From Selenomonadaceae bacterium (lineage in GTDB: Bacteria; Bacillota; Negativicutes; Selenomonadales; Selenomonadaceae): a stretch of 64,000 nucleotides of DNA. A model generated the notes under the pieces. It saw only the letters and a list, made by a program, of their open reading frames with translations, did no database searches and was not told the origin of the DNA. Within the stretch, counting starts at the first letter, position 1. The number at the start of each line of letters is the position of its first letter. The position numbers were made by a program, and so were the translations under genes. Location of the stretch: the NCBI GenBank assembly GCA_024698045.1, contig JAILRS010000039.1:1-64000 (forward strand), given 5' to 3'. Shown in pieces: positions 43,001 through 62,587 of this stretch.

Positions 43001-46000
43001 GATACTTTCGCGGTTGACGCTTCCTCCGAGGTCGCTACCGTTAAATCGGCCGATACTGTGAACTTGACTGACGGCGCACTCTTCAGCGACGGAACAATCG
43101 TTGCAGGCGGATACTCCATAGTCGGTGCTGACGTTGCCGTTAGTGTGAACGGCACTGCAGTTTCCGTAACCGATATCGCAAACGGCGAATCCTTCACTGT
43201 TGACGCCACCACTTACAAGATGATTAACGGCAATCTCTTCGTCATGGAAGACGACAAGGCTATCGCTCAGGTTGGCGATTCCTTCTCGGAAGGCACTCTC
43301 ACTTTGGGCGAAGACGACACAACCGATATCATCGCTCCCACCGAAGGCGCACTTGACTTGTCGACACTTGCGGCAGACACTTACCTGGTCTATAGCGACG
43401 CAAGCAGCCCGACCGGCAATCTCGGTTCTGTAACCATCGACAGCGCAGCAGTAACATTCACAACCGCAACTGGTGCAACACCTGCAACAGATATCGCTAC
43501 CATCTCTTTGGCAGATACCGTCACGAATGCTTCAATCGACTTCGAAACCTTTGTCACGACCGATTCCACCGAGGCAATCACTGTTAACACTCAAGACTAC
43601 GACGCAACAGAAAAAGGCCTCACCGTCAAGACGACGGCAGAAAGCTCCACGCTCTATAACGGCACCGTTGCTTTGGCAGCGACCAAAGACGTTGTAATCT
43701 CCGATGCCACCATTGCAGCTACCACGGGCACTATCAATGCTGCCGCAGCTAACGGCTCATTATCCGCGGTATCCGATGTCGACGCAGGCGAAGTCTTCAA
43801 GGTTGACACAACCGAATATCAGAAGAGCAATATCGGTCTGGTCAAAGGCGGCGCGTCCATCCTCCTTGGCAGTGCAAGCACATTCACTGCCGCAACTCTC
43901 GCAGGCGACGACTTTACAACAATCGTTACCGTAACGAGCGGCGCACTCACAATCGACACCACCACTGCCGACGGCGTTGTCGCTGATATTTCCAACCTCA
44001 AAGATGCGAAGAACTACGGCACAATCGCTTCCGACGTATTCACTGCAAGCGAAAACGCTACTCTTACCTCCGTTACCGTTGCCGGAACTGCCGCAACAAT
44101 TTCCGGAACAATAGATCCTACCTTCAGCGCAGTAGATGCAACCTTCACCGTAACCGAAGATAATAACAAATCATTCGCAGTTGACGCAAACGGCACAATC
44201 GCTTCCGTCACGGCTGCTGATGAGATTTCCTTGACTGACGGCGCACTCTTCAGCGACGGAACAATTGTTGCAGGTAGCTACACTATAGTCGGTGAATCTG
44301 TTGCCGTTGATGTGGACGGCTCCGCGGTTTCCGTAACCGATATCGACAACGGCGAATCCTTCACTATTGGCAGCGATGTTTACACACGTAGCGGTGATTA
44401 TCTGATTAACACAACCGATGGCACGCAAGTTGTTAAAGGTTATGCCGACGGCGTCCTCACGTTGGATGACAAGGCAGAAAACGCAATCCTCGCTCCGAGC
44501 GCAGGCGTTCTCGATTTGGATCAGGATGACGCCACTTATGCGGTATTCGACAGCGTAAGCAAGCCGACCACCAAACTTGCTGAAGTAACGATTGCAAAAG
44601 GCGTAATCGGTTTGTCGAGTGTCGAGGGTGCAAGCGCAATTACGACCGTTGAAGTAAACACAAAGACAACCGAATTGACTACCGACTTTGCTACCAACAT
44701 CGTTACCGAAGCCGACGCAGTTACAGTCAACTCCGTTGCATTTGCTCCTTCGGGCGCAGTCACTATCGCAGCAGATGAAGAAAGTGCAGCGCTCTTCGCA
44801 GGCAATGTCGTACTCGAAGGCGGCGCAAGCGTAATCGGCAGCGAAAGCGGCACAGTCATTGCGGGCGAAAGCTCCGATATGGTTGTTACCGCTGTTGACG
44901 GCACCTTGACTGTCGTTGACGGACTTGAGGCCGGCGAATCCTTCACTTACAACGGCGAAACCTACACGCAATCCGACTTCGGTCTCATGAACAGCGCAGG
45001 CGAAGTTGATACTGTGTTTGCAGGTGCAAGCAGCATCACTCTCAGCAAGTTGGATGATTTCGCAGGCGTCGAATATGTCGCACCTGAAGACGGCATTCTC
45101 GACCTCACGGGCATCACCGGCACTTCGGTTATCGTCCTCGACGACAAGACCACACCCAAGCAGCAAATCGCAACCGTAACCGTAACCGACGGTGCAATCA
45201 AGCTCGCAACCTATAACGCTTTCACCGGCGAAATCAGCGAGTACATCACCAATGTCAACGTTAGCGAAGACGCAACGATAACCACAGACTTTGCTACCAA
45301 AGTTACGGGCGCAGGCGAACTCACCGTTAACACTGTCGCTTACAATGCAGCAGATGAAGTTGTTATCAGTGCGGCGGAAGACGGCAAGACCAGCACGCTT
45401 TACAACGGCGCAGTCACTTTGGACGGCGAAACCTACACGACGGTCACCGACAGTAGCGAAAACGCCAACACCGTATCCGTAACCACTGCCTCAAAAGGTA
45501 TTGTAGTCACGGCTGCAGACGGTACCATAACGACCTTGTCCGGCGTAGCGACAGAAGATGTCTTCACCTACAACGACACCGAATACACCCAGAGCGATTG
45601 TGGCTTGACGACCGAAGAAGACGGAAAGAATTACATCTATACCGAATTCAAGAGCACGATTACTGTTGCTGATTTGGCGGAAGCCGAAGGCACACTGTAT
45701 ATCGCACCTACCGACGGCGTTATCGCAGCAGCCGACGTAACCGAAAATGTTGCAGTCTATGACGCATTGACAGTGCCCACCACACAACGCGGTAACATCA
45801 CTGTTGACGGCTCTGATTATACCGTTGACTTTGCAATCGACTTGACAGTGGAAAGCGGCAAAACCGTAACCATCAATGACACCGTATATGAGGCAACGAG
45901 CGACATCACAGTATCCACCACAGCGGATGCAAGCACCTTGACACTCGGTTCGGTCACCGTAAGCGAAGGCAACACCGTAACGACAACGAATGACGATGTG

Positions 46001-49000
46001 GTAACCACCACCACCGGCACGATTACTTTGACCGTAGACGAAGATGGTGCAGCTACAATCAGCGAAATCGCAGAAGAGGGCGACACATTCACCGTTAACG
46101 GCGTAGAATACACCATGACGGCAATCGGCTTGCGTCGTGGAAGCGATAACTATCTCTGGAACACCAGTTACGAAGACGGCATTGCGGTCAGCGATTTGAC
46201 GGTAGTCGATTACTGGACAGCAACGTTGGTTGGCGGCACAAGCATTCTCGGTATCAGCAGCGGCACTTTGGAACCCGGCACAGATTGCGCTTTGGTTGAT
46301 GATAAAGACAATCCGACGGTTATCTACGGCAGACTCTCCAGAGACTCTGCAGGCGTTTACACCATTGACGCAGAAAACGAATCCGTTTCCAAACCTGCCG
46401 GAATAAGCTTGACGGATGCCGATATCAAACTTGCGAGTGACTACGCCGAATTGCCGTTGCAAGTAACCGCAGGCGACGAAACCGCAACTTTGACCGTAAC
46501 CGCCGACAGCGACTACACAGTCAATGCAAGCGGCTCGGCTGCAATCGGACTTGAAGGTGTGGCTTCGGTTGGCGTTGAAGGCACTGCACCGATATCCATC
46601 GGCGAAGAAACAGTAACAGTCACGGGCGACACCAGCTACGGCATCGACGTAACCGACGATGATATCACTTCACTCAACGAAATCAGCAACGCGACAATCG
46701 CAGGCTTGGTCAACGGAACAATCAACACCGACGAAGAAGGCACGGTCACGGTTGACAAGACCTACACAGCAAATGTCGGCACAGCCTACACCGTTGAAGA
46801 CAGCACAATCGTTGCGGCCAGCGGCGTTGAAACAATCAGCGGCGACTTCAGTGACGGTCTGAACGTCAACGGCGATGACTACACAGTAGACGGCGGCGAA
46901 GTAACAATCGACGACGAAGGCAACATTGCGGCAGCAGCAGGCGACTACACGGTTAACGGCGCAGAAATCGGAACGACAGCCGATATGACGGTAGCGACAG
47001 CCGACGGCGAAATTGCCGGAATCTCGACAGCGGGCGAAGCCACAATTACTTTGGGTCAATCCGCTACCGCGCTTGACATCAACGGCGACACCATCACCAC
47101 CGACAATGCAATCGAATTGGGAGTGGACGAAAACGGCGTCAGCGAAGTCAACGGCCTCAGCGGCATGATCAGCGGTCTGGACGACGCAGTAGTAAACGAT
47201 GTCAGCGAAGGCACAATCAACGGCAGCGCAATCTCAATCCTTGGCGACGAGGACGGAGTCGATGTAGTAGTAGCAGGTACATCGGCAATAAGCGCAAGCG
47301 GTTTGAGTAACGGCGCGACGGTAGTATCGGCCGAAGGCATGAGCTTGGCTACGGACGGCGATGGCGTGTTCACATTCGGCGATGAAGTTTACTCCATTGA
47401 CAGTGCTGATGATACGGGCGCAACCTTCACAACCGACGACAGCAGCGACGTAGATAATATTTCGATGAGCGGCACGGTAGAGACAACCGACGACGATATC
47501 GCGCTGAACGGCAAAGAAGTAGAGATGAGCAATCCCGACGGCATGGCGATAACCACCGACGGCGAAGAAATCACTGCGATAAGCGGCTTGTCGGCAAATC
47601 AGAGCGTAGGCGGCGACATCGAAAATGCAACAGTTGAATTGCCCGAGGGTACGGCAACGGTTGACGGCGTAGAATACACGCTGAGCGAAGACGGCGCAAG
47701 CTTGGTAGGCGAAAACAATCTGGTAATGCCGGAAGATGCAATGGTAACAATCGGCACGGCAGACGACTACACGATCAACGGCGAAGCGGTCACGGCAGAA
47801 GAAGATAATCAAGTATTCGCAATCAACGAAGACGGCGTCTACACGCCGGACGGCAACGACATGCCGATAAGAGAAACCACACCGGCAGCACAAATCTTCG
47901 GCGATGAGACAAATACAGTGCATTCTACCGAAGATGGCGAAGAAATTGTCTTGGAAGGCAATAAAGCGCTTGCGTTGATAGAGGGTGATGCGGCGGTCAC
48001 GAACGGCGGCGGCCTGGGCGACAGTGTAGTAGTGAGAAACGACGCAGATGTCACACTCGATGTAGCCAACGGCACGACAACTGTAGTACCTGTAAGCGGC
48101 ACGGTCGAACTCGAAAACTACGATGACGACACAACGGCAATCAAGACCTACAAGTACAACGACATAGCCAACGCAGTCAAGAACGACAAAATCAAGTTCG
48201 GCGACGGTAATATGACGTTGAGCGACGGCGGCGCAGAAGTAACATTCGACGCAGACGCAACCGAAGAAGGCTTCACTGTAGCGACGTTGATAGATGCGGA
48301 AGGCGACAAACAGAAAGTCGGATTCACGCACACCGACGGCGGCATGATAGACGTCAGCGCTGAAGATGAAGATTATGTCTTGAAAGGCAATTACGCCGAA
48401 ACGACGAACGACACGCAGAAGAGCAGCGGCAGCACGTTGACGGGCGGCAGCGGCAATGATACGTTGTTAATCGGCGAAGGCGACGTAGCAGAAGCAGGCG
48501 GCGGTACGAACGAAGTTTACATCACGCCTGAAGCATTGCGCGACGAAGCAGCCACGGTAGTAGCAGGCACAACCGAAGGCGTCACCGAAGTTCACAACTT
48601 CAGCACCGGCTACGATAAAGAAAATGATGTTGTTGAATTAAGCAATGTCAATTCGCTTGAGTTTACGGCGGGTGCGTCGGGCGTATCGATGGGCACGGGC
48701 GATGCAAGCGTAGTATTCGCGGGTATCGAGCCCACCGATGCGGTAATCAACAGCAGCAATCCGCTGAACGCAGACGGCGGCTACGAATTGAAACTGTCCT
48801 ACGGCGATGAGACTTACAAAGCAGCAGTAGCGCAAGCGGGCAAAGGCTTGGCGGTCACCGACGAAAATGAAGCAGATGCCTTCTTCGCAGAAGCGCTCTC
48901 CTTCATCGAATACACGGATGATGTAGTAGTCGACTTGAACAACAACGCGGCGAATATAGGTGGCAATGATGCGTACTTGTCCGGTGTGACGGCAGTCGAA

Positions 49001-49918
49001 GGCGGCGCAGTCAGCTCCACTCTTATCGGTGCCGATGACGTTGAGAACACGTTAATCGCAGGTAGCGGCGGCGGATTGATTATGTCCGGCAAGGGCAATG
49101 ATGTCTTGGTCGGTAACACGGATTCGGATAAAACAGCAGGCACGGCGTTCTACCATGCGGCAGGCTACGGCAAAGACACAATCAGCAACTTTGACTTCAT
49201 GACCTCTTCCGGCGACGACATCAGCGACAGCATAGTGATATCGCCTTCGAACTCGGTAACGAGCGTAACGATAAAGGACAACGACGTATTGATTGGCTTC
49301 AACAACAGTGCGGCGGATGTTCTTACAGTCGAAGATGCGGTTGGCGAACACATGGCAGTAAACGGTGTCATAGCTCAAGTCGCCAAAGAACTCGAATACG
49401 ACGGTTACACGACCTGCTATGTTGGTAACGGCAAGAACAGCACGGTCAACGTCGGCAGCGACATGGGCGATGTCTTCATCAATATGGGTGCAGAAGAAGG
49501 CACGACGTACATCAATGGCATCGTAGCGTTGGATGCTAGCGAAGCGAACGGCAACAACACATTGGTAGGTAACGAGAATGACAACTTGATAATCGGCGGT
49601 ACGGGCTCCAACAGCTTGTTCGGCGGTTACGGCAACACCAATGATACGTTGACGGGCGGCGAAGGCTACAATGCATTCTTCTTCGACGTACAGAACGGTA
49701 CAGACCGCATCACCGATTTGAACGACGGCGACGACATCAACATCATGGTAGGTCTGGATCAAATTTCGACCACGAACATCACGAGCAGCGGCGTAACGAT
49801 AGAGTTGACGGACGGCTCGAAACTGAATGTGAGCGGCGACGAAGATGTCACGTACAACCTGAACGACGGCACGAGCTACAAGGCGAACCACGAGACCAAG
49901 GAATGGGACCAACAGTAA
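31082..49918 (+). CDS. Giant repetitive protein (6278 aa), putative surface/secreted adhesin
   Basis: One uninterrupted frame of 18.8 kb. There is no signal peptide; the N-terminus is MVDFIFDLQRFATT. Residues about 45-200 look like a beta-helix (Thr/Gly/Ser rungs). From about residue 235 to 5025 the protein consists of some 25 diverged copies of a roughly 200-aa domain marked by G-E-x-F-x-V-x-G-x-x-Y-T-V...G-L-M/V, e.g. GEIFSYNGINYTVTAAGLV and DEVIYVNGSNYTVKGIGLM. Residues about 5025-5670 are shorter, more acidic repeats. Residues about 5675-6278 match the C-terminal module of the 1193-aa protein (ELENYDDDT, GGSGNDTLLIGEGD, GGEGYNAFFFD, end YNLNDGTSYKANHETKEW). The composition is acidic, Thr/Ala/Asp/Gly-rich, with only three cysteines seen. 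The mass is roughly 0.64 MDa. Type I-like export and adhesion are inference. Confidence 0.85.
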   Translation: MVDFIFDLQRFATTSATTWDKFKEALADPTVTVIEYIPNEDTATESLTIDDTKTVTISTTGTLDMGAYSIESAGTLKISSSTITGTEGTTFLNITGGTTDITGTAVLTGNIEVSGGGEFTVSTGTLKLSGNISVVTGDLTVRKDTTVTGDVTLNSPANSGVTISGATLTVTGTYSSKNTTLQNSGKLVVNLSISDFYLYDSTSDTITNKNSATPITVTREGTDTTISGLVTGATFTINDVVYTVVSDNLITATDENDTTKIYEGSIAAGVTEAAISFTGSESELKPAIMVDATKALTLDDTAISSLTEDGTKIYSTDFQTTYGTISKDSSGVISITKIDATDAGSLTALNVIDGKTVSLSKNFTDVVITIIDGTSFKATATGDYTVTGSDKIATLAGAVAASVGTAGSLLTAASTTTLISNDGTYSVTGYTDSTGGNDGVLLTGKELSDIDVGESFTVGTQGYTMTSAGIMSSDLNSIYSGATLKGYGNGVGVDLASLTAANMAQIITPSSKVLTIGGTNSVSGVVFNEAKTANLYATLTASSGYTLDSLTGFTTNTFTGAVSTISVAKGAKASIGAAFADSTGAITYVNERTSTTFKVTAIKSGASYFVIDGTTDKRSVTNATEITLLSGSLYVNNTQTITLGSTGTTFKLDDGANIVQIVYDETAGTYSVEAAAGITFTFTDSTSTATTYEITATGTDGVVTFSVDSTGAVTFSDLDSGDIFTAGTTTYTVTSSALVKTETESESVSVWNVDGEHTVTGGTVTAASLDSDTNWSGVALVDDDKNLNLSTLTPNDTYTAINNTYDTIYGGVTVSSGAYTVAADATNTLTSVSLGSDATFVGASLESVAVNSEAATLTVIDDGTDSAFTVVTTADNASVSTGETVTLSGGTLAFSADTSVNVSDNNIEAAEGDFVVDTTNLTLTSGKKFSLDSSAEFRNTDIGLVNSTDTLYVLGSQDSITGLASLTASTIAMANANALTISADTKDALIVDDVTVPATAYAVYDSTTGVLGATNAESLPTLTAWDSVNNVYIDSTTVSLDGAVTLAPVVGLASSASVKVTSLAADNTGFNFTDTGTGATTNAATFDQYAGLVSLTSDTTQTVIAGTGTPHSISAVQDVTNGITVTISGTEEIIGGLEEKEVVNIDGTNYTVTAAGFVSDDSILVSDNIATLSADNLTGAQGYVTISGGAITLPTDTVPAIVLSDDLQTVYGNVATISGGYSLDTINATGDYYSSVTADTAVSAVAFGEGFDSVTITAAKSEAVFFVKEDSAFTLNNNTAASLTGDSLTIYQSAGAIELANTTQTINANGSVIAVAGTTDVTINVDDTEATIGGLDNSNEQIIVGDTAYTVKGDHLIREGSKLLIIGDDDAVAVSELGGNKWMSYVTLSAVNGTVSIPPSTESSPWIVTDQNVESHYATIQSADGDKYNVSLESTAAGQINIYGKNSGATFTTDDQDFTVEDKATGAVISNIDNVVSLTAGQVNLTTINKPTIHAGTNDMYYVSGNNGIKVSVDTDNNITFSGLDEDEVFSYADTNYTVTAAGLVSDTKILTGVTASVGSVAAASLGKGDKYTTITGGIVTINGSEGVVVESDFTASYASLTANGVNSLENATATPTGIYVAITEEAAIKNMANVSVTAASSGAKFTTDDDDYSVTDAATGAHIADATEVSLKTGVLSLEGGDSQTVTAGTYSVSAVGTSTKVTLSVSGSDATVGGLDTPDEVIYVNGSNYTVKGIGLMNETSLLTADEIKEDAAVDLAKVTDTTTGWAAVDTVNNTNSNYVTLGNAELIADSAYSALLATISTSSDSAYEVTAEDSAEFGYYATQSGAKFTTDDKEFKVTDASDGATFTDLDKAISLTAGVVSISGGATVNVGGTDIISSSDIVIDATNTTIGDLDDGEIFSYNGINYTVTAAGLVGGDKILRDVATSKTVAITDLGTAGDDYITVDSANAVVTIDGSKSGVIIDGTKFATLYGSLSADAINTIANGTGTLAGIYVSNSVKNAFGINNMASAEVTLQTSGAVFKTTDTAYTVTDNANGAYVKDADAITLSAGVVSVDSSTKIVNAASNNIAMTEGNATISASTTDATIGGLSTGEIVNIASADYSVKGIGLMKDESLLTADALDDNAVAVSKVTLTTSGWAKVDTVASDSADKYVTLSSDYTRIADSAYSTLYATVSTNGDAYTIIEDTNHAYGYAATNSSVQFSTDDTSFTVTDNADGATFEEVDEGAVSLASGKVSLGNNDKTTLSLENGEITYGTKGTDGIVVEATAKGKKATISGLGEIGETFTYGDTTYTVTAAGLVGGDKILLDVATSQTVDVESLGSGASLVTVGTDEVVTIDGSTTGVIIDGTKFATLYGTLSANAIDTIANGTGSLKGIYVSADTASINNMANVAVTADKSDAKFTTDDTAYTVTDADTGAYIAGAENVSLTAGTVSLNSDNAQTISSGDYKVDILEKATSGRSEATLTTDGNAVTIGGIDTGEVFHAADINNNLDGTYTLKGVGLMDGTSLLTSGGFSNGAVAVADLFGDNWSATDTIDNLSTSYLTLAGAKEGEAPTLIVDTKYASVLATVGATANDAYGVTIGGDAKFNGYHATLSGAKFTTDDKAFGVTDSVDGATFTDMDEGVVSLESGNVSLGGTDTITTIHANEKDLVNVSGNGISLTAEGSKVTIGALDGNDVFNFGGVSYTVTAAGLVSSDKILLGVESVSGTVDAASLGSGYNYITVDSAAAALTIAGTATTKGDSPWVVVSSDFKTTYGTLAADGSGYVFDTIAADNASLTTVLIDDKGSPVTLNNVAAAGISATLSGATFTLIDDADGKVVVTDNANGAYITETSQISLTAGTVSLNNTNAQTITAANNNKIAMTDGDATLYAEGKDATIGALETDDMFNVAGISYTVEKIGLMNKDSLLIFDNLQDSAVAVSTIVATDGWVLTDTVGTDNKVTLSAAERLVNAGYSAILATVASDGTAYTVTANTDLTYNVTNSGAQFTTGSLSFTVNDVAEGASISATNVTLTAGIETLSYDNPQTVYAGTAEGENVQHSISAVNGGVAVTISGTEEIIQGLEEKEVVNVDGTNYTVTAAGFVSDKTVLISKETATLSADSLGSASSYITITDGAITLPSSIVPAVVLSNDLATIYGNVNTISGGYSLDTLNATGGFSAVTAAGISAVAFGAGFDSVTITAAKSEAVFYVGESAAFTLNNNDAASLTGENLTIYQSAGAIELANTTQTISANESVIAVAGTNPDVTVNVDGTEATIGGLDNSDEQIIVNDTTYTVKGNNLIKDDNKLLIIGDDNAVAVSELGGNKWMSMITLSSETSNVTIPPSDGTTPWVVTDSTGEINYGTIKGDDTSGYNVSVADGGKFGIYATASGAQFTTDDKDFTVKDAEGGAVITGIESDVVTLTGGKVSLASATPTIYAAQNNINFVSGDGVVVEASGNKATIGALDSTEKDVFSYGGTNYTITAAGLVSDSLIWTTVASADGTITSTDLKAGDKYTTISSGIVTIDGSEGVVVGSDFKAKYATLTANSVDTIANGTTPTGIYVSIDGAAAINGMSGVSVTADKSGAVFTVNYDAYSVTDANTGAYIADATEVNLTAGVLSLQGVDNQTIAAGKIYTVSAVGATTEVTLSVDNNKVTVGDLDKKGESFNVTTSDGTTTYTIFGDKLFVMDEDGKAEAQVTNFSESALTLGDDELTSIIAPTDDALLDLSTLAANTYLVYSDASSPTDNLGSVTISSTAVTFDAEDTVKAADAIASISLASKVSNASIDFVTDVMTNSLKEIKINGEDYTAATAGITVTSDGTASKLKDGTVVLAATKDVVIDATVTAVTGDITVSAADSKFASVSGVDAGEAFKVDTTEYQNSNIGLVKGGASILLGEATEFTAATLTGDDFTTIVTVTSGALTIDGTAAGVVADISNLKDAKNYGSLASDVFTAGTDTLTSITVDGVVATLPANDATLSADGATFTVTDTDTFAVDASSEVATVKSADTVNLTDGALFSDGTIVAGGYSIVGADVAVSVNGTAVSVTDIANGESFTVDATTYKMINGNLFVMEDDKAIAQVGDSFSEGTLTLGEDDTTDIIAPTEGALDLSTLAADTYLVYSDASSPTGNLGSVTIDSAAVTFTTATGATPATDIATISLADTVTNASIDFETFVTTDSTEAITVNTQDYDATEKGLTVKTTAESSTLYNGTVALAATKDVVISDATIAATTGTINAAAANGSLSAVSDVDAGEVFKVDTTEYQKSNIGLVKGGASILLGSASTFTAATLAGDDFTTIVTVTSGALTIDTTTADGVVADISNLKDAKNYGTIASDVFTASENATLTSVTVAGTAATISGTIDPTFSAVDATFTVTEDNNKSFAVDANGTIASVTAADEISLTDGALFSDGTIVAGSYTIVGESVAVDVDGSAVSVTDIDNGESFTIGSDVYTRSGDYLINTTDGTQVVKGYADGVLTLDDKAENAILAPSAGVLDLDQDDATYAVFDSVSKPTTKLAEVTIAKGVIGLSSVEGASAITTVEVNTKTTELTTDFATNIVTEADAVTVNSVAFAPSGAVTIAADEESAALFAGNVVLEGGASVIGSESGTVIAGESSDMVVTAVDGTLTVVDGLEAGESFTYNGETYTQSDFGLMNSAGEVDTVFAGASSITLSKLDDFAGVEYVAPEDGILDLTGITGTSVIVLDDKTTPKQQIATVTVTDGAIKLATYNAFTGEISEYITNVNVSEDATITTDFATKVTGAGELTVNTVAYNAADEVVISAAEDGKTSTLYNGAVTLDGETYTTVTDSSENANTVSVTTASKGIVVTAADGTITTLSGVATEDVFTYNDTEYTQSDCGLTTEEDGKNYIYTEFKSTITVADLAEAEGTLYIAPTDGVIAAADVTENVAVYDALTVPTTQRGNITVDGSDYTVDFAIDLTVESGKTVTINDTVYEATSDITVSTTADASTLTLGSVTVSEGNTVTTTNDDVVTTTTGTITLTVDEDGAATISEIAEEGDTFTVNGVEYTMTAIGLRRGSDNYLWNTSYEDGIAVSDLTVVDYWTATLVGGTSILGISSGTLEPGTDCALVDDKDNPTVIYGRLSRDSAGVYTIDAENESVSKPAGISLTDADIKLASDYAELPLQVTAGDETATLTVTADSDYTVNASGSAAIGLEGVASVGVEGTAPISIGEETVTVTGDTSYGIDVTDDDITSLNEISNATIAGLVNGTINTDEEGTVTVDKTYTANVGTAYTVEDSTIVAASGVETISGDFSDGLNVNGDDYTVDGGEVTIDDEGNIAAAAGDYTVNGAEIGTTADMTVATADGEIAGISTAGEATITLGQSATALDINGDTITTDNAIELGVDENGVSEVNGLSGMISGLDDAVVNDVSEGTINGSAISILGDEDGVDVVVAGTSAISASGLSNGATVVSAEGMSLATDGDGVFTFGDEVYSIDSADDTGATFTTDDSSDVDNISMSGTVETTDDDIALNGKEVEMSNPDGMAITTDGEEITAISGLSANQSVGGDIENATVELPEGTATVDGVEYTLSEDGASLVGENNLVMPEDAMVTIGTADDYTINGEAVTAEEDNQVFAINEDGVYTPDGNDMPIRETTPAAQIFGDETNTVHSTEDGEEIVLEGNKALALIEGDAAVTNGGGLGDSVVVRNDADVTLDVANGTTTVVPVSGTVELENYDDDTTAIKTYKYNDIANAVKNDKIKFGDGNMTLSDGGAEVTFDADATEEGFTVATLIDAEGDKQKVGFTHTDGGMIDVSAEDEDYVLKGNYAETTNDTQKSSGSTLTGGSGNDTLLIGEGDVAEAGGGTNEVYITPEALRDEAATVVAGTTEGVTEVHNFSTGYDKENDVVELSNVNSLEFTAGASGVSMGTGDASVVFAGIEPTDAVINSSNPLNADGGYELKLSYGDETYKAAVAQAGKGLAVTDENEADAFFAEALSFIEYTDDVVVDLNNNAANIGGNDAYLSGVTAVEGGAVSSTLIGADDVENTLIAGSGGGLIMSGKGNDVLVGNTDSDKTAGTAFYHAAGYGKDTISNFDFMTSSGDDISDSIVISPSNSVTSVTIKDNDVLIGFNNSAADVLTVEDAVGEHMAVNGVIAQVAKELEYDGYTTCYVGNGKNSTVNVGSDMGDVFINMGAEEGTTYINGIVALDASEANGNNTLVGNENDNLIIGGTGSNSLFGGYGNTNDTLTGGEGYNAFFFDVQNGTDRITDLNDGDDINIMVGLDQISTTNITSSGVTIELTDGSKLNVSGDEDVTYNLNDGTSYKANHETKEWDQQ
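34529..41488 (+). repeat. Seven long super-repeats (372-394 codons) in the giant gene
   Basis: The nearly constant DNA string for YTVTAAG starts at 34529, 35690, 36806, 37964, 39146, 40316 and 41468, so the period is 1116-1182 bases. Between these marks a second copy type reads YTVKGIGLM or similar, so each super-repeat is two domains of about 190 aa (type A then type B). Other shared blocks are SGAKFTTDD, VSLTAG and ATIGGLD. Confidence 0.9.
42086..46150 (+). repeat. Second, diverged set of the same domain in the giant gene
   Basis: LFVM(D/E)(E/D)D marks recur at 42086 and 43238 (1152 bases), with the aligned LINTTDG at 44405. The blocks VYSDASSPT, EYQ-SNIGLVKGGASILLG and NLKDAKNYG occur twice 1.15 kb apart. 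Shorter units follow with GESFTYNGETYTQSDFGLM, EDVFTYNDTEYTQSDCGL and GDTFTVNGVEYTMTAIGL. Confidence 0.8.
48105..49918 (+). other. C-terminal module shared with the 1193-aa protein
   Basis: About 604 codons that align end to end with codons 622-1193 of the gene at 23627. Matched pairs include YNDIANAVKNDKI with VSDIAKGIKDKSI, DKQKVGF with KTQKVAF, GGGTNEVYIT with GGGQNTLYLT, and FDFMT with FEFMT. The module has scattered Gly/Asp turns like RTX repeats but few perfect nonapeptides. Confidence 0.8.
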
Positions 49919-54563: not shown

Positions 54564-55745
54564 TTGTTTTTTGGCAGTAAGAAAATGAAGGCAATCGCGT
54601 TGATGATGGGAACGTTGATGGCAGGAGCGGTAATGACAGGTTGCGGCGGCGAAAGCGGTAATAAACCCGCAGGCGATGAAATTGTTGTCGGTGCAAACTT
54701 TGAATTGACGGGCAATCATGCACAGTACGGTTCCAATGCAAGTAACGGATTGAAGTTGGCGATAAAGGAAGTCAACGAGGCAGGCGGCATCAACGGTAAG
54801 AAAATCAAAATCGTCGAGGCAGATGCGAAATCAGATGCTGCCGAATCGGTAAACGCGGCAACCAAATTAATTTCCGACGACAATATAATCGCAATGGTAG
54901 GCCCTGCGGTCACGGCGAATGTAATAGCCGAATCGCAAGTGGCAACCGATAACAAAATCCCCGTCATTGCTCCGGCGGCAACCAATCCCGATGTTACAGT
55001 CGAGAACGGTAATGTTAAACCCTATATCTTCCGCAGTTGCTTCATAGATCCTCAGCAAAGCGAAGTCATGGCGCAATTCGCTCTTAAAGATTTGAACGCA
55101 AAGACAGCAGTCCTCTATCTTGATTCCAGCTCCGATTATTCAAAGAGCCTCGGCAAAATCTTCAAAGAAAAATTTGAGGCAGGCGGCGGACAAGTTTTGA
55201 TGGAAGAAGCTTTCTTAGCGAAAGACCAAGACTTTAAAGCGGCGTTGACAAAATTGCAGACGGCGAACGCTGAAATTATCTTCGTCCCCGCGTATTACGA
55301 GGAAGTCGGCAAAATCGTCAAACAGGCGCGCGAATTGGGTATCAACTCCGTAATTCTCGGCACCGACGGTTGGGATGACACTAAGGTTGTCGATATAGCC
55401 GGCAAAGAAGCCCTCAATAATACTTTCTTCTGCACTCATTATTTTGAAGGCGATGCGGAAGTTCAGCCGTTCATCAACGCTTACAAAAAGGAATACAACA
55501 ACGAACCGAATGTCTTCGCGGCATTGGGCTATGATGCAGGAAAAATGTTAATCAACGCAATCGAGCGCGACGGTACCGATTCCGAAAAGATTCGTGCCAA
55601 TATCGAGAGCATAAAAGATTTACCGGTAGGCACGGGCGTTATCACAATGGACGCCGCTACTCACAACCCGATTAAGGGCATTGTCGTCCTCGAAACAAAA
55701 GACGGCGTTCGCTCACTCCGTGCGAAAATTGCGCCCGAAGGCTGA
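54564..55745 (+). CDS. livK: Branched-chain amino acid ABC transporter, substrate-binding lipoprotein
   Basis: A 393-aa periplasmic binding protein of the LivJ/LivK type. The signal ends in VMTGCGG, so the cysteine is lipidated. The mature part has the Peripla_BP_6 pattern: IVVGANFELTGNHAQYG, GLKLAIKEVNEAGGINGKKI (20 residues of the first lobe) and IAMVGPAVTANVIA. It captures branched-chain (or related) amino acids for the LivHMGF channel encoded downstream. TTG 54564 has GGAAGGA nine bases upstream; ATG 54585 has none. era ends 18 bases before. Two glycosyltransferase genes separate it from livH. Confidence 0.93.
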   Translation: MFFGSKKMKAIALMMGTLMAGAVMTGCGGESGNKPAGDEIVVGANFELTGNHAQYGSNASNGLKLAIKEVNEAGGINGKKIKIVEADAKSDAAESVNAATKLISDDNIIAMVGPAVTANVIAESQVATDNKIPVIAPAATNPDVTVENGNVKPYIFRSCFIDPQQSEVMAQFALKDLNAKTAVLYLDSSSDYSKSLGKIFKEKFEAGGGQVLMEEAFLAKDQDFKAALTKLQTANAEIIFVPAYYEEVGKIVKQARELGINSVILGTDGWDDTKVVDIAGKEALNNTFFCTHYFEGDAEVQPFINAYKKEYNNEPNVFAALGYDAGKMLINAIERDGTDSEKIRANIESIKDLPVGTGVITMDAATHNPIKGIVVLETKDGVRSLRAKIAPEG

Positions 55746-55815: not shown

Positions 55816-56877
55816 ATGTCCGAAAAAAAATCGGCGTTCGAGTCGGATAAAATATCGATAGCCTTTTCGTTAACATCCGAATTGGATAACGCCGTAGTAG
55901 GAAAAAAAGTTTTCGATGCACTGATTAAATTGGCTCCGGACTGCATGATTGATATCTTTTGCCCAAACGAAAGAGCCAAAACATTTGCCAAAGCTGTTTA
56001 TTCCGACAGCGCAAATTTGAATTTGATTTCGATTAACGACGCTCAATATAAAGAGACAACCAAGAAATACGATTTGGCGATTCTGATTTACTCGACACAT
56101 TTTATTATTCTGCAAAATATTAATGAAGCCGCCTTGAAAAATAAATCGCCCAAACTTTTTAATGCAATAGTCGGCATTCATAATTACAATACGAAAAATG
56201 TTTACAATGTCGGCGCGGATAATCGTACCGCCTTCCGCAATATGATGATGGCGGGCATTTTGAAACAAAATTGTTTTGCCTTCCTTTCGTGTAACGGGGC
56301 ATTGCCTATTCATGACGACAAAGTAAACATCTCACTTTCGGCGGAATATAAATCAAAATTCGACGCGCTGAAGTTAGGCAAATACATTGCGATTTATTCA
56401 GATATGACGACCGGCGAAAAAACTCCAAAGGCAAAAACATGGCCGCTGCAATATCTGACGGAATATATATCGCGCATGAAAAAAATGTTGCCGCAGGTAG
56501 AAATAATTCAAATCGGCGGCGAAAAAGATGTCAAGATAGAAAATGTAAACCGTCATTTGTTGAGTGATGATTTGGAGCTGACAAAATATCTTTTGGCGAA
56601 TGCATTGTTGGTTGTCGGCGATAATTGCGGTTACGTTCATTTGGCGACGGCTTTGGGCACGAAATGTGTTGTCTTGTTCGGGCAGAGTAGCGCAGATTAT
56701 TTCGGTTACGACAGGAATATAAATATCGCGTCGGAAGTTTGCAGCCCATGCCGATTTTTTTTCCAAAATGAAAATATATGCATGCGTGAAGAAAAGGAAC
56801 CGTTATGCATGCTAGGTATCACGCCGAAACTTGTCAGCAAAATCACTTGTACTCATCTGAAACATATTTTGGATTGA
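55816..56877 (+). CDS. GT9-family (heptosyltransferase-like) glycosyltransferase 1
   Basis: A 353-aa soluble GT-B-type protein. The C-terminal nucleotide-sugar half has WPLQYLTEYISRMKK, EIIQIGGEKDV, LLSDDLELTKYLLANALLVV, GDNCGYVHLATALGTKCVVL and FGQSSADYFGY, the pattern of ADP-heptose:LPS heptosyltransferases (GT9). A cysteine cluster VCSPCRFFF near the C-terminus also fits the family. The N-terminal HDxxG-like LDNAVVGKK is weaker than in the second copy. It presumably adds a sugar to lipopolysaccharide, capsule or a protein. It lies between livK and livH and is a tandem paralogue of the next gene. Confidence 0.85.
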   Translation: MSEKKSAFESDKISIAFSLTSELDNAVVGKKVFDALIKLAPDCMIDIFCPNERAKTFAKAVYSDSANLNLISINDAQYKETTKKYDLAILIYSTHFIILQNINEAALKNKSPKLFNAIVGIHNYNTKNVYNVGADNRTAFRNMMMAGILKQNCFAFLSCNGALPIHDDKVNISLSAEYKSKFDALKLGKYIAIYSDMTTGEKTPKAKTWPLQYLTEYISRMKKMLPQVEIIQIGGEKDVKIENVNRHLLSDDLELTKYLLANALLVVGDNCGYVHLATALGTKCVVLFGQSSADYFGYDRNINIASEVCSPCRFFFQNENICMREEKEPLCMLGITPKLVSKITCTHLKHILD

Positions 56878-56890
56878 TGGGAGGATTCTT

Positions 56891-57955
56891 ATGAACGGAA
56901 AAAAATTTGCGTTTGAATCGCCCGAAATTTCCATAGCTTTTTCGATAATATACGGCTTGGGCGACGCAATAATGATAAAAAAAGTTTTTAATGCTCTGAT
57001 TGAGCTTGCGCCGGATTGTGTCATTGATATTTTTGGCGGTACGGAAAATCATATGGCTTTTGCAAAATCTTTTTACTGCGACAGCAAAAATTTAAACAAT
57101 ATTTATCTACGCAATCATAAATACAACGACGTTAAGAATAAATATGATTTGGCTTTGTTGGTTCATGGGAATCATTACATACTTTTCGATTACATAAACT
57201 CTGACCGATTAAAAATCATGTCACCCAATCTTTTTAAAGCTATTTTGAAAGTACAAAAATATAATCAAAAACATGTTTACTATAGCGGCGTTAATATCTA
57301 CACGGATTTTTATAACATGGTATCTTCACGAATTGTAAATAAGAAAAGTATAGAACTTCTTAGCTGTGACGGAGCATTGCCAATTTATGACGATAAAATT
57401 ACTCTTCCGCTCCTGCCCGAACATAAATCGAAATTCGACGCACTGAAATTAGACAAGTATATTGCAATTTATTCGGACTGCAATGTTAAAGAAAAAATTT
57501 TCAAAGCTAAGATTTGGCCTATAAAATATTTTGTTGAGTACGTGTCGATGATAAGGCGTCGATTCCCCGATGTCGAAATAATCCAAGTCGGCGGCGAAAG
57601 TGATATTAAAATAGAAAATGCAGATCGTCATTTGTTAAGTTATGATTTGGAGTTGACAAAATACCTTTTGGCAAATGCCTTATTGCTTGTCGGCTGTGAA
57701 AGCGGTTACGTTCATATGGCTACGGCATTGGAAACAAAATGTCTTGTCTTATTTGGTTTCAGCAATGTCGATTATTTTGGTTATGACAGGAATATAAACA
57801 TCGTGTCGGAAGTTTGCAGCCCGTGTATGTATGCAACAGGTTCCAGTTCATGTATGCGCGGTAAAAAACATCCGCCGTGCATGTACAGTATTACGCCCCA
57901 AAGAGTTTGTGAAGCCACTTGTAATTATCTCAATGAATGCGGCATTCAAAGTTAA
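56891..57955 (+). CDS. GT9-family (heptosyltransferase-like) glycosyltransferase 2
   Basis: A 354-aa tandem paralogue of the preceding gene, alike over the full length (shared FESxxISIAFS, ALIxLAPDCxIDIF, SCDGALPIYDDK, EHKSKFDALKLDKYIAIYSD split pattern, and HLLSYDLELTKYLLANALLL). The N-terminal YGLGDAIMIKK is the GT9 loop near the acceptor site. The C-terminal half has ESGYVHMATALETKCLVLFG and VCSPCMYATG. Divergence is moderate, so the duplication is not recent. GGGAGG lies six bases before the ATG and 13 bases separate the two genes. Confidence 0.85.
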   Translation: MNGKKFAFESPEISIAFSIIYGLGDAIMIKKVFNALIELAPDCVIDIFGGTENHMAFAKSFYCDSKNLNNIYLRNHKYNDVKNKYDLALLVHGNHYILFDYINSDRLKIMSPNLFKAILKVQKYNQKHVYYSGVNIYTDFYNMVSSRIVNKKSIELLSCDGALPIYDDKITLPLLPEHKSKFDALKLDKYIAIYSDCNVKEKIFKAKIWPIKYFVEYVSMIRRRFPDVEIIQVGGESDIKIENADRHLLSYDLELTKYLLANALLLVGCESGYVHMATALETKCLVLFGFSNVDYFGYDRNINIVSEVCSPCMYATGSSSCMRGKKHPPCMYSITPQRVCEATCNYLNECGIQS

Positions 57956-57957
57956 GC

Positions 57958-57986
57958 GTGACAATATTGCGCCGAAAAGTTATAAT
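57958..57986 (+). promoter_or_regulatory. Promoter copy 2 (before livH)
   Basis: GTGACA (57958-57963), 17 bases, TATAAT (57981-57986). Transcription would begin near 57993, inside the 5' arm of the following hairpin. Confidence 0.7.
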
Positions 57987-58019: not shown

Positions 58020-58907
58020 ATGGACTTTATGCATCAACTCGTTCAGCAGTTGATAAACGGTGTAAGTCTGGGCAGTATCTATGCCTTGATTGCCTTGGGC
58101 TACACAATGATTTACGGCATTATAAAATTAATCAATTTCGCACATGGTGACGTTTATATGGTCGGCGCGTATATCGGTTTCGCGGCTATCACAATCGGAA
58201 ATTTGCCGCTGTTGCCTGCGCTGTTACTGTCTATGGCGTTGACGGCTTTACTCGGCATATTGGTTGAACGTATTGCATATAAACCGTTACGACACGCGCC
58301 GAGAATTTCACTGCTCATTACTGCGATTGGCGTATCGTTTTTCCTTGAATATACCAGCATGTATTTCGTCAGCCCCACGCCGCGCACTTTTCCCGACACG
58401 AGTTTAAATTTTGCATTCAATATCGGCGGCTTCGTTATCAACGGACAACAATTGATGATTTTCGGGATAACGATAATTTTGATGGCGTTGCTGACTTACA
58501 TAGTACAAAAAACTAAATTAGGTAAGGCAATGCGTGCGGCAAGTTTCGACACCGAAACTGCGCAGCTAATGGGCGTCGATTCGGATAAAGTTATTTCGAT
58601 GACGTTCTGTATCGGTTCGGCATTGGCGGCGGCTGCCGGTGTACTCGTCGGCATTTACTACAACACAATAGATCCGTTAATGGGAATCATGCCCGGCCTC
58701 AAGGCATTTGTCGCGGCGGTTTTGGGCGGTATCGGAATTTTACCGGGCGCGGTTGTAGGCGGCATTGTCTTGGGTGTTGTCGAGGCTTTGGTATCGGGTT
58801 TTATTTCCTCCACCTTCCGCGATGCCGCTGCCTTCGCTATTTTGATTCTGGTGTTGTTGATTAAGCCGAGCGGATTATTCGGCAAAAATACTAACGAGAA
58901 AGTGTGA
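58020..58907 (+). CDS. livH: Branched-chain amino acid ABC transporter, permease LivH
   Basis: A 295-aa inner-membrane permease with about eight hydrophobic segments. LINGVSLGSIYALIALGYTM and GIIKLINFAHGDVYMVGAY are the LivH signature at the N-terminus, and GLKAFVAAVLGGIGILPGAV is the cytoplasmic coupling region near the C-terminus. It pairs with LivM to form the channel. The ATG directly follows the T-run of the leader hairpin, with GAGGAGG as ribosome site. Confidence 0.96.
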   Translation: MDFMHQLVQQLINGVSLGSIYALIALGYTMIYGIIKLINFAHGDVYMVGAYIGFAAITIGNLPLLPALLLSMALTALLGILVERIAYKPLRHAPRISLLITAIGVSFFLEYTSMYFVSPTPRTFPDTSLNFAFNIGGFVINGQQLMIFGITIILMALLTYIVQKTKLGKAMRAASFDTETAQLMGVDSDKVISMTFCIGSALAAAAGVLVGIYYNTIDPLMGIMPGLKAFVAAVLGGIGILPGAVVGGIVLGVVEALVSGFISSTFRDAAAFAILILVLLIKPSGLFGKNTNEKV

Positions 58908-58911
58908 GACG

Positions 58912-59877
58912 ATGAATTCGGCCAGAAAAAGAGATTTGATAATGCTTGTATTCGGGTTGATACTTTACGGCGTATTGCAGATGCTAATCAGCATGAAAGT
59001 TATCGGCTCGTTTTGGGAACTCAATATAATTCTAATTTGCGTCAACGTAATTCTTTCGGCAAGTTTGAATTTGATAAACGGTTACACGGGACAATTTTCC
59101 TTAGGTCATGCCGGATTCATGGCGGTCGGTGCATACGTCGGAGTTATCGCCACGGTTAAATTCGGTTTGCCGCTGATAGCCGCTTTGATATTGGGCGCGG
59201 TTGCTGCGGGATTTTTGGGATTTTTAATCGGCTTACCTACATTGCGTTTACGCGGTGACTACTTGGCTATCGCGACATTGGGCATGGGTGAAATTATTCG
59301 TATCGTCATAATGAACATTGACTATGTAGGCGGCGCGGCAGGTTTCAAAGGCATTCCGCACCTGACAAACTTTACATGGGTTTTCTTCGCAATGCTTATA
59401 ACTTTGTTCTTGATAAAAAATTTCGTAAACTCTTCGCACGGACGTGCATGTATAGCGATACGCGAAAACGAAATTGCGGCGGAAGCTATGGGCGTCAACA
59501 CTACCAAATATAAAGTCATGGCGTTTACTTTGGGCGCGGCTTTGGCAGGTGTTGCCGGCGGTCTCTTCGCTCATCAATTCTATTTAATCAGCCCCAACTC
59601 GTTTACTTTTATGGCTTCGTTCAATTACTTAATCATGGTTGTCATGGGCGGTTTGGGTTCAATCACGGGATCTATCGCGGGTGCGTTCGTCGTTACGTTT
59701 ATATCCGCGGCGTTGGCATCTTTCCCCGAAGTACGTATGATTATTTACGCATTGGCTTTGATTCTGATGATGTTCTATCGTCCGCAAGGTTTATTCGGTT
59801 ACATGGAAATTACCAATGTCAATCCGATAAAAAAATTCTTAGATAGAATGTCTGGCAGTAAGGAGGCAGCAACATGA
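58912..59877 (+). CDS. livM: Branched-chain amino acid ABC transporter, permease LivM
   Basis: A 321-aa inner-membrane permease. LINGYTGQFSLGHAGFMAVG is the LivM signature, GLPTLRLRGDYLAIATLGMG follows, and ENEIAAEAMGVNTTKYKVMA is the coupling loop that meets the LivG/LivF ATPases. The start is four bases after livH; its ribosome site is weak, so coupling is likely. The stop overlaps the start of the 68-aa gene. Confidence 0.96.
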   Translation: MNSARKRDLIMLVFGLILYGVLQMLISMKVIGSFWELNIILICVNVILSASLNLINGYTGQFSLGHAGFMAVGAYVGVIATVKFGLPLIAALILGAVAAGFLGFLIGLPTLRLRGDYLAIATLGMGEIIRIVIMNIDYVGGAAGFKGIPHLTNFTWVFFAMLITLFLIKNFVNSSHGRACIAIRENEIAAEAMGVNTTKYKVMAFTLGAALAGVAGGLFAHQFYLISPNSFTFMASFNYLIMVVMGGLGSITGSIAGAFVVTFISAALASFPEVRMIIYALALILMMFYRPQGLFGYMEITNVNPIKKFLDRMSGSKEAAT

Positions 59878-60103: not shown

Positions 60104-60886
60104 ATGGCTGATAAAAAACCGTTACTGGAGGCGGACAATGTTTCCGAAGTTTTCGGCGGACTCAAAGCCGTCTCGGATTTCAACATTTACATAAACAAAG
60201 GGGAGCTTATCGGTTTGATAGGTCCCAATGGAGCCGGCAAGACAACTGCATTTAATTTGATAACGGGCGTGTATGCGCCTACGACGGGCGATATAACTTT
60301 CGACGGCAAATCAATCGTAGGCATGAAACCATACGAGATAACCAAGCGCGGAATCGCTCGCACGTTCCAAAATATTCGGCTCTTCAGCGAACTGTCTGTT
60401 CTGGATAACGTCAAGATTGCCTATCACTGTCACGTCAAATATGGTTTGATTGAAAGTTTCTTGCGTATGGGCAGATATTTCGGCGAGGAAGAATCAATAG
60501 AACAAGAGTCATTAAAGTTGCTGAAGATATTCAAATTGGAAGAACATGCCTACGAGGTCGCGAAAAATCTTCCGTACGGCGCACAACGTCGATTAGAAAT
60601 AGCGCGCGCACTTGCCGCCAAACCGAAACTGTTATTGCTTGACGAACCTGCCGCGGGAATGAATCCGCAGGAAACACAGGAATTAATGGAAATGATTCGC
60701 TGGATTAGGAAACAATTCGGCTTGACAGTCCTTTTGATAGAACACGACATGAGTTTGGTTATGGGCATCTGCGAAAGGATTTACGTGCTTGAATACGGCA
60801 TGATTATCGCGGACGGTACGCCATCCGAAATACAAAACAATCCCGAAGTCATTCGGGCTTACTTGGGCGACGAGGCAATTAATTAA
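60104..60886 (+). CDS. livG: Branched-chain amino acid ABC transporter, ATPase LivG
   Basis: A 260-aa cytoplasmic ATPase. Walker A is GPNGAGKTT, the Q-loop region is GIARTFQNIRLF, the ABC signature appears as LPYGAQRRLEIARAL (YGAQRR in place of LSGGQ, usual for LivG), Walker B is LLLLDEPAAGMNP, and the switch histidine is in IEHDMSLVM. The EVIRAYLGDEA tail is typical. It powers uptake through LivHM together with LivF, which is separated from it here by an acyltransferase gene. Confidence 0.97.
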   Translation: MADKKPLLEADNVSEVFGGLKAVSDFNIYINKGELIGLIGPNGAGKTTAFNLITGVYAPTTGDITFDGKSIVGMKPYEITKRGIARTFQNIRLFSELSVLDNVKIAYHCHVKYGLIESFLRMGRYFGEEESIEQESLKLLKIFKLEEHAYEVAKNLPYGAQRRLEIARALAAKPKLLLLDEPAAGMNPQETQELMEMIRWIRKQFGLTVLLIEHDMSLVMGICERIYVLEYGMIIADGTPSEIQNNPEVIRAYLGDEAIN

Positions 60887-60898
60887 GGAGAAAATATC

Positions 60899-61843
60899 AT
60901 GGCGTTAGATACTTTGATTTTTGGCACGGATGATTTATACAACAGTTTGAAACCGTTTTATATTCAACAAGTTAAAGTAGGCAATTTGAATATCGTTGCA
61001 TACGCTACTTTCGAGAACGGAAGAATTATATTTCGGGATAAAGAAGGCAAGTCGTTTCCCGAGGGTGTCCCGTCTGTCTTCCATATAGCTGTAATTTCTT
61101 CTCGAAATAATTTTTACATGCGAAGTAAAATCTTGGAAAGTCAAGGCGTTCCGCGCAACAGAATAATCGACGGCAATGTATTTAAAATCCCAAATTTAGA
61201 TTTCGGTAAATTTCTTGATACCGGTGTCGCTTATGGGGTTTTAGATAACGCTAAGAGTTTTGTTGCCAGTACTTTTATCGGCAACAGACAAATTTATCGA
61301 TTCAAAAATAATCCCTCGCTTTTATCACTTGATGTAAAAAGTTATATTGATCAAGATAGCAGAATTGACGGGGGGGGGGGGGAGATTTCTGTCGGAAAAT
61401 TTTCTGGTTTATCTTGGAATTTATCTTTTTATATGGGAATAAACAACGATCATGATCACAGAAAAATTACTTCATATGATTTGCTGTGGTTCGATTGGGA
61501 AAGTCCCAAGGAGTTTTATTCCCAAAAAGGCATATGTAAAATTCTTATAGGCAACGATGTATGGGTAGGGCGCGGCTGTGCGTTTAAATCTCTTAATCCG
61601 AATAAACCGCTAACCATCGGCGACGGCGCAGTTATCGCTTCCGACAGCGTTGTAGTTAAAGATGTTCCGCCCTATGCAATCGTAGGCGGCAACCCGGCGC
61701 AGATTATCAAGTACAGATTCCCGAAAGAAATTATCGAATCCATGTTGCGAATCAAATGGTGGGATTGGGATATGGATAAAATTTACGAGAACTATAAATA
61801 CTTCAATGACATAGAAAAATTTGTATCTCTGCATGACAAATAA
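60899..61843 (+). CDS. Hexapeptide-repeat (left-handed beta-helix) acyltransferase, probably phase-variable
   Basis: A 314-aa protein. The C-terminal half is a CatB/WbbJ-like O-acetyltransferase: [34 protein letters not shown] and [17 protein letters not shown], the last being the usual end of the beta-helix. The N-terminal 130 residues ([20 protein letters not shown] and so on) are not recognised; they may be a sugar- or nucleotide-binding part. Codons 158-162 are a run of 13 G (61370-61382) giving Asp-Gly-Gly-Gly-Gly-Glu. Loss or gain of one G stops translation at 61440 or 61453, before the beta-helix is complete. It probably O- or N-acylates a surface sugar, in keeping with the GT9 genes upstream. 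It is inserted between livG and livF. Confidence 0.85.
61370..61382 (+). repeat. Poly-G tract of 13
   Basis: Thirteen consecutive G inside the acyltransferase coding sequence, in the in-frame (ON) length. It is by far the longest G run I saw in the window, in an A/T-leaning region. Confidence 0.9.
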
Positions 61844-61876
61844 AGTTTCACGCAAAAAATTTACGGTGGTGATTAT

Positions 61877-62587
61877 ATGGCAATGCTTGAAATCAAAGAT
61901 ATAAATGTCTACTACGGAGCAATACACGCGATAAAGGGCATAAGTCTTTCGGTAGAGGAAGGTGAAATAGTCACTCTAATCGGAGCGAACGGCGCAGGAA
62001 AATCGACGACACTGCGCACAATTTCAGGACTGTTGAAACCGAAGACGGGCACGATACAATTTCTGGGCAAAGATATCGCAGGAATGCCGGCGCACAAAAT
62101 CGTCAGGGAAGGAATATCGCAAGTGCCCGAAGGTCGCCGAATATTCGCGGAAATGACTGTGCAGGAAAATTTAGAGTTGGGCGCATTCATTCGCGATGAT
62201 ACCGACGAAATAAAAAAAGACTTTGAAATGGTCTTCCAAAGATTTCCGCGACTCCAAGAAAGACGATTGCAATTGGCAGGAACATTATCGGGCGGCGAAC
62301 AACAGATGTTGGCAATGGGTCGCGCGTTAATGAGTCGCCCGAAACTTTTGTTGCTCGATGAACCAAGTATGGGTCTGGCTCCTCTTTTGATTCGCGAAAT
62401 TTTTAATATCATAGTCGACATCAATAAGACGGGCACAACAATTTTACTCGTCGAACAAAATGCAAATATGGCGTTGTCGATTGCAAACCGCGCTTATGTT
62501 TTGGAGACGGGTAGGATAACAATTTCGGGCGAAGCAAAGAAATTGGCGGCAAGTGAAGATATCCGTAAAGCATATTTGGGCGGCTGA
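61877..62587 (+). CDS. livF: Branched-chain amino acid ABC transporter, ATPase LivF
   Basis: A 236-aa cytoplasmic ATPase, the second of the LivG/LivF pair. Walker A is GANGAGKST, the signature is LSGGEQQMLAMGRALMS, Walker B is LLLLDEPSMGLAP, the switch histidine is replaced by Gln in LLVEQNANMAL (normal for LivF), and the end reads IRKAYLGG. GGTGGTGAT precedes the ATG. It ends the transporter set. Confidence 0.97.
   Translation: MAMLEIKDINVYYGAIHAIKGISLSVEEGEIVTLIGANGAGKSTTLRTISGLLKPKTGTIQFLGKDIAGMPAHKIVREGISQVPEGRRIFAEMTVQENLELGAFIRDDTDEIKKDFEMVFQRFPRLQERRLQLAGTLSGGEQQMLAMGRALMSRPKLLLLDEPSMGLAPLLIREIFNIIVDINKTGTTILLVEQNANMALSIANRAYVLETGRITISGEAKKLAASEDIRKAYLGG

Follow-up and report, generated by a model that had tools for sequence, protein, structure and literature searches.

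Poly-G variability of the kind considered here has its best-known examples in pathogens, among them Neisseria and Campylobacter. Long runs of G or C make up the phasome of Campylobacter jejuni; most lie within genes, many of them genes for glycan modification, ON and OFF states are mixed, and each genome holds many tracts (PMC6321876, PMC8355987). Poly-G phase variation in Neisseria involves a promoter tract at PorA (PMC3639595) and coding tracts in HmbR and HpuA (PMC3786947). An earlier note on the present DNA had cited Campylobacter, Helicobacter, and Neisseria surface-glycan genes as precedent when it proposed slippage at a poly-G tract.

The tract in question lies in a 64-kb stretch of an assembled genome, analyzed in full and referred to as the window, from a genus of uncultured Selenomonadaceae, one member of which came from water-buffalo reticulum. 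The genus resembles C. jejuni in tract type, glycan-gene hosts, mixed ON/OFF states, and the many tracts per genome; it differs in belonging to the Selenomonadaceae, a Gram-negative Firmicutes lineage, and in carrying MutS1 and MutL. Like Neisseria, it has coding tracts, some of them in genes for TonB receptors, as well as tracts located between promoter boxes, whereas the tract in the window is of the coding type only and belongs to an uncultured rumen organism with no known pathogenic role. A search of the open-access literature returned no report of poly-G phase variation in Negativicutes, Selenomonas, Quinella, or rumen bacteria, and the Quinella genome paper makes no mention of it. The mechanism is known; the lineage (uncultured rumen Selenomonadaceae) and the scale look new.

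A G13 tract within a liv operon

Thirteen consecutive G residues occupy positions 61370-61382 of the + strand, inside a 314-codon open reading frame (60899-61843) encoding a hexapeptide acetyltransferase, where they form codons 158-161 (GGGG) and the first base of a GAG codon. All other G runs in the window have lengths of 1-6, with no second run of 7 or more, and the longest C run is 5; by a Markov estimate, ~1e-8 runs of at least 13 G would be expected per window. The 40 contigs of the source genome total 2.08 Mb and contain four G/C runs of at least 10 (G11, G12, C11, and the G13 of the window) vs 0.01 expected by the same type of estimate. Runs of 8 or 9 are absent, except for a C8 beside one of these tracts at a contig end.

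The length of 13, which derives from the 40-contig assembly and is possibly one base wrong, keeps the frame open to 61843, exactly as the earlier note had described for an acyltransferase coding sequence in the ON state; the same arithmetic leaves it open at 10 and 16 G. Frame computation places a TAA stop at 61440-61442 (+ strand, after 180 codons) for 12 or 15 G and a TGA stop at 61453-61455 (+ strand, after 185 codons) for 11 or 14 G, confirming the stops given earlier for one G fewer and one G more. A one-G change therefore ends the acetyltransferase at 180-185 of 314 codons, before most of its β-helix, in keeping with the earlier expectation that the helix would be left incomplete.

We conclude that the tract is very probably a poly-G contingency (phase-variation) switch of this acetyltransferase, with reversible slippage in living cells inferred from sequence. 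Slipped-strand mispairing at replication would add or remove G residues, so that one length in three (10, 13, or 16) would yield the full acetyltransferase and the others a stop after ~180-185 codons, before or at the histidine His185, and no enzyme. Since the gene sits in the livHMGF operon, its expression presumably follows that of the operon, and a clonal population would mix ON and OFF cells differing in an acetylated product. The G13 would then be one of four such tracts in the genome and part of a genus-wide switch set. Loss of mismatch repair was considered as a cause of the tracts and rejected, because MutS1 and MutL are intact in the source genome; with these genes present, slippage need not be fast.

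Alternatively, the run could be a sequencing or assembly artifact, with no true long G run at the site or with a poly-G error of two-color chemistry. The assembly is built of short contigs, one of the four source-genome tracts lies at base 15 of its contig (G000:C11:1-25), and in another genome of the genus, G003, tracts occur at contig ends above expectation (5 of 88 within ~100 bases). Real length mixtures would equally predict contig breaks at tracts, however, and both flanks of the G13 are unique coding sequence with the frame open across the run. Many assemblies also have tracts at homologous sites, and tracts are found repeatedly in particular classes of gene and in promoter spacers; an artifact is highly improbable. 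An exact search of IMG/VR with the downstream flank of the G13, for a conspecific copy of another length, returned no match.

The gene order around the tract is Era-like GTPase, livJ-like, two GT9, livH, livM, small ORF, livG, acetyltransferase, livF, and esterase-like. The livJ-like binding protein gene (54564-55745) is followed by two tandem GT9 (heptosyltransferase-family) genes on the + strand (55816-56877 and 56891-57955), which separate it from livH. A promoter-like GTGACA-17-TATAAT element (11/12 matches; 57958-57986, + strand) precedes livH, in a region that as a whole scores at chance level. The genes livH (58020-58907) and livM (58912-59877) belong to the same operon on the + strand, and livG (60104-60886, + strand) lies directly upstream of the acetyltransferase gene, whose ribosome-binding-like AAGGAG (60885-60890, + strand) overlaps the livG stop codon. 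Directly downstream, livF (61877-62587, + strand) has its own ribosome site (GGTGG, 61865-61869), as previously noted, in a start region 33 bases further on from the acetyltransferase. A promoter scan for livF gave only chance-level matches inside the acetyltransferase gene or before livF. With no better-than-chance promoter between the two genes, polarity on livF is possible, and lowered livF in OFF states is a candidate effect of the switch.

In at least 12 species of the genus, the liv operon contains diverged copies of the acetyltransferase gene, numbering from one to three or more, in the same direction and placed in either the livG-livF or the livM-livG interval. An acetyltransferase inside this transporter operon is thus a trait of the genus. 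In one relative (G024), a C9 tract splits the GT9 gene upstream of livH (L186:10340-11394), putting its N- and C-terminal portions out of frame with each other; the liv locus thus has a second candidate switch gene. Elsewhere in the window, positions 31082-49915 form a single 18.8-kb open reading frame (~6278 codons) for a giant protein whose two halves both lack a Pfam match.

The host acetyltransferase and its relatives

The protein combines an N-terminal domain with a left-handed β-helix of the hexapeptide type (60899-61843, + strand; ON at 13 G). Pfam gave no match over threshold, so its identity rests on NCBIfam scores under the cut-offs, on sequence matches in the PDB, and on fold. The nearest NCBIfam families are Vat, CatB, and ApmA, all scored far under their curated cut-offs (107.7 vs 300 for Vat and 91.7 vs 350 for CatB), and both PDB sequence matches and Foldseek agree that these are the nearest solved relatives. 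An AlphaFold2 model has a mean pLDDT of 77, with high values chiefly in the helix part. The left-handed β-helix with a conserved His that marks Vat/CatB-type enzymes is present, as are the C-terminal helices shared with Vat, CatB, and ApmA; the low scores, an extra N-terminal domain, the liv-operon location, and the G tract set the protein apart from all three. Assignment as a NeuD/PglD sugar acetyltransferase was rejected (TIGR03570 score of 26.8 vs a cut-off of 160.8), and a PglD_N identity for the N-terminal domain was unsupported, as this part has no Pfam match.

His185 (codon 61451-61453, + strand) is invariant in the family alignment and, by analogy with Vat and CatB, is presumably catalytic. 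Because the OFF products stop at 180-185 codons, every one of them lacks His185 and most of the helix. In the AlphaFold2 model, the GGGG encoded by the tract forms the turn linking strand 149-158 to strand 161-165, where the chain enters the helix. The corresponding turn of homologues is a short D/E-G-x-G, from which we infer that the ON protein should tolerate GGGG.

The acetylated product is most likely a cell-surface glycan, judging by the neighboring genes and by the company of other tract genes. The switch could be real and yet act on a detoxifying (antibiotic) acetyltransferase, as the kinship with Vat, CatB, and ApmA might imply. We regard a drug-directed enzyme as unlikely: the scores fall far under all curated cut-offs (107.7 of 300 for Vat), the protein has an extra N-terminal domain, and the other coding tracts of the genome lie in genes for an FkbM methyltransferase and a glycosyltransferase. 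The presence of several diverged copies in an operon also suits glycan variation more than drug resistance.

Tract sites and ON/OFF states among homologues

Many homologues of the acetyltransferase carry tracts of their own (G6-G11). Mapped onto the host protein, these fall near residues 50-57 in many genomes and at a second site, near residue 84, in two (G007 and G032); the site at codon 158 occurs in the source genome only among the homologues compared, and some homologues have no tract. All three sites (50-57, 84, and 158-161) are loops in the AlphaFold2 model. With regard to the earlier suggestion to count G length in related strains, homologous tracts vary in length and state elsewhere in the gene, and the tract at codon 158 is found here alone.

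Among homologue copies with tracts of at least 9, nine are ON and six OFF, as called from assemblies, many of them metagenomic, in which single lengths or states may err by one base. In one copy counted as ON, that of G034, another stop lies in frame beyond the tract. ON and OFF states alternate on the tree, with three opposite-state sister pairs (G011/G026, G007/G032, and G034/G029a) that share the tract site within each pair. Eight OFF copies, including ones with tracts of 6-7 G, retain 234-267 downstream codons with a single stop overall (in G013), and their third-codon-position excess equals that of ON copies. To judge from these sequences, the OFF copies display the pattern of genes switched off, not lost. 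Among the tracts of the genus at large, paralogous pairs with similar flanks have unequal lengths in 13 cases out of 14, and in 11 the difference is not a multiple of three; all such differences in length and state are between species and paralogues rather than inside one strain.

These data bear on two further explanations. If mutational bias simply expanded G runs, the tracts would be neutral and the OFF copies en route to loss. Tract presence and position do vary across the genus, and some copies are truly damaged, by an internal deletion in G019 and by the extra stop in G034. Such decay is nevertheless very unlikely as a general account, given that OFF copies remain open over long stretches past the tract and show substitutions in a coding pattern, that sisters alternate between ON and OFF, and that tracts are concentrated in surface, receptor, and restriction genes and lie in loops or between promoter boxes. 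Programmed slippage of RNA polymerase or the ribosome, by which each cell would mix full and truncated protein and the tract would tune dosage, would also account for intact downstream sequence in out-of-frame copies. It leaves unexplained both the tracts in promoter spacers and the length differences in 13 of the 14 paralogous pairs, and the best-known cases of transcriptional slippage in bacteria involve A/T runs rather than G runs; we give this explanation very little credence.

Slipped-strand phase variation, the core reading of the earlier note, is by comparison well supported at the sequence level: homologous tracts occur elsewhere in the family, ON and OFF states are mixed, OFF frames stay open, paralogues differ in tract length, and the genus holds a large set of tracts. 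The acetyltransferase genes share the features of a poly-G phase-variable gene, with a run beyond chance, a one-unit change that abolishes expression by frame prediction, length and state differences among related copies, and open OFF alleles.

Poly-G tracts across the genus

Of 60 genomes of the genus, all but one (59) contain tracts of 10 or more. When the class was sampled, such tracts were present in 31 of the 32 genomes from this genus (median 8.5, maximum 86; counted by hand from a table) vs 137 of 269 genomes of other Negativicutes (median 1). The genome G003 alone holds 86 (88 with two runs of 9), with a modal length of 12. Of these 88, 46 lie in reading frames, 22 near gene starts, and 20 elsewhere, and a mechanical rule scores the in-frame tracts as 15 ON and 31 OFF. 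The flanks of G003 tracts (L153-L182, L203-L260) follow a consensus of approximately A-N-T-C/T-T-C[Gn]C-A, both in and outside genes, which could have been spread by gene conversion or could be a preferred seed sequence.

Tract hosts include glycosyltransferases (GT2, GT8, GT11, and GT92), DUF4422 proteins, FkbM and other methyltransferases, WcbI, WbqC, and hexapeptide transferases, together with TonB-dependent receptors, flagellin, and restriction-modification genes. These are the classic phase-variable gene classes. As a rough control, the remaining genes of the window are flagellar, cell-cycle, oxidoreductase, and translation genes, with the two GT9 genes as the only glycosyltransferases. 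In the source genome, the tract hosts are the liv acetyltransferase, a GT8 glycosyltransferase, and an FkbM methyltransferase, the fourth tract being at a contig end. The GT8 gene adjoins a glgC-like gene, and the FkbM gene lies between gidA and a biotin-carrier/carboxylase pair (neighbors named from translation); the coding tracts of this genome are thus in single modifying genes amid housekeeping genes. Within the GT8 gene (L009:6689-7916, G000:C6), the G11 is near the C-terminus and ends the protein 13-16 codons later, and another frame past the tract stays open for ~90 codons. This G11 may switch a C-terminal tail rather than the whole enzyme.

Some non-genic tracts lie between TTGACA-like and TATAAT-like boxes, with spacers of 17 (L058 and L153) or 19 (L059). 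Box pairs flank 11 of 29 tracts from different genomes vs 3.4 (maximum 8) in shuffled flanks, and 19 of 82 tracts in G003 vs 9.1 (maximum 18). Impossible spacers (10-14 or 29-32) among the matches mean that not all box pairs are promoters, and the proposition that every boxed G-tract flank is one was ruled out. Judged on these sequences, the genus probably uses both frameshift and promoter-spacer switching.

It is likely that an uncultured, apparently non-pathogenic rumen genus has a poly-G phasome as large as those of classic pathogens, combining frameshift with promoter-spacer tracts, keeping its mismatch repair genes, placing switchable surface-modifying genes singly in housekeeping operons such as liv, and using three tract sites in one family. 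The significance of the finding rests on this genus-wide set rather than on the single G13 tract. Phages, protozoa, or rumen crowding are possible drivers in a genus whose surface, receptor, and restriction genes would carry tracts by the dozen, and genes called frameshifted in such assembled genomes may be switched off, not broken.

Two further sequence features were observed. Three genomes of the genus share a promoter-like element, CTTGACAATGGGGCATT[G10-11]ATAA, in which the tract lengths are 11, 11, and 10 (L044, L047, and L061). In a different genus of the same family (g26), a region of ~1 kb (G238:C9:3589-4606) contains 13 or more G tracts with lengths of at least 10; it has the look of a G-rich repeat array and differs from the scattered tracts of the genus studied here.
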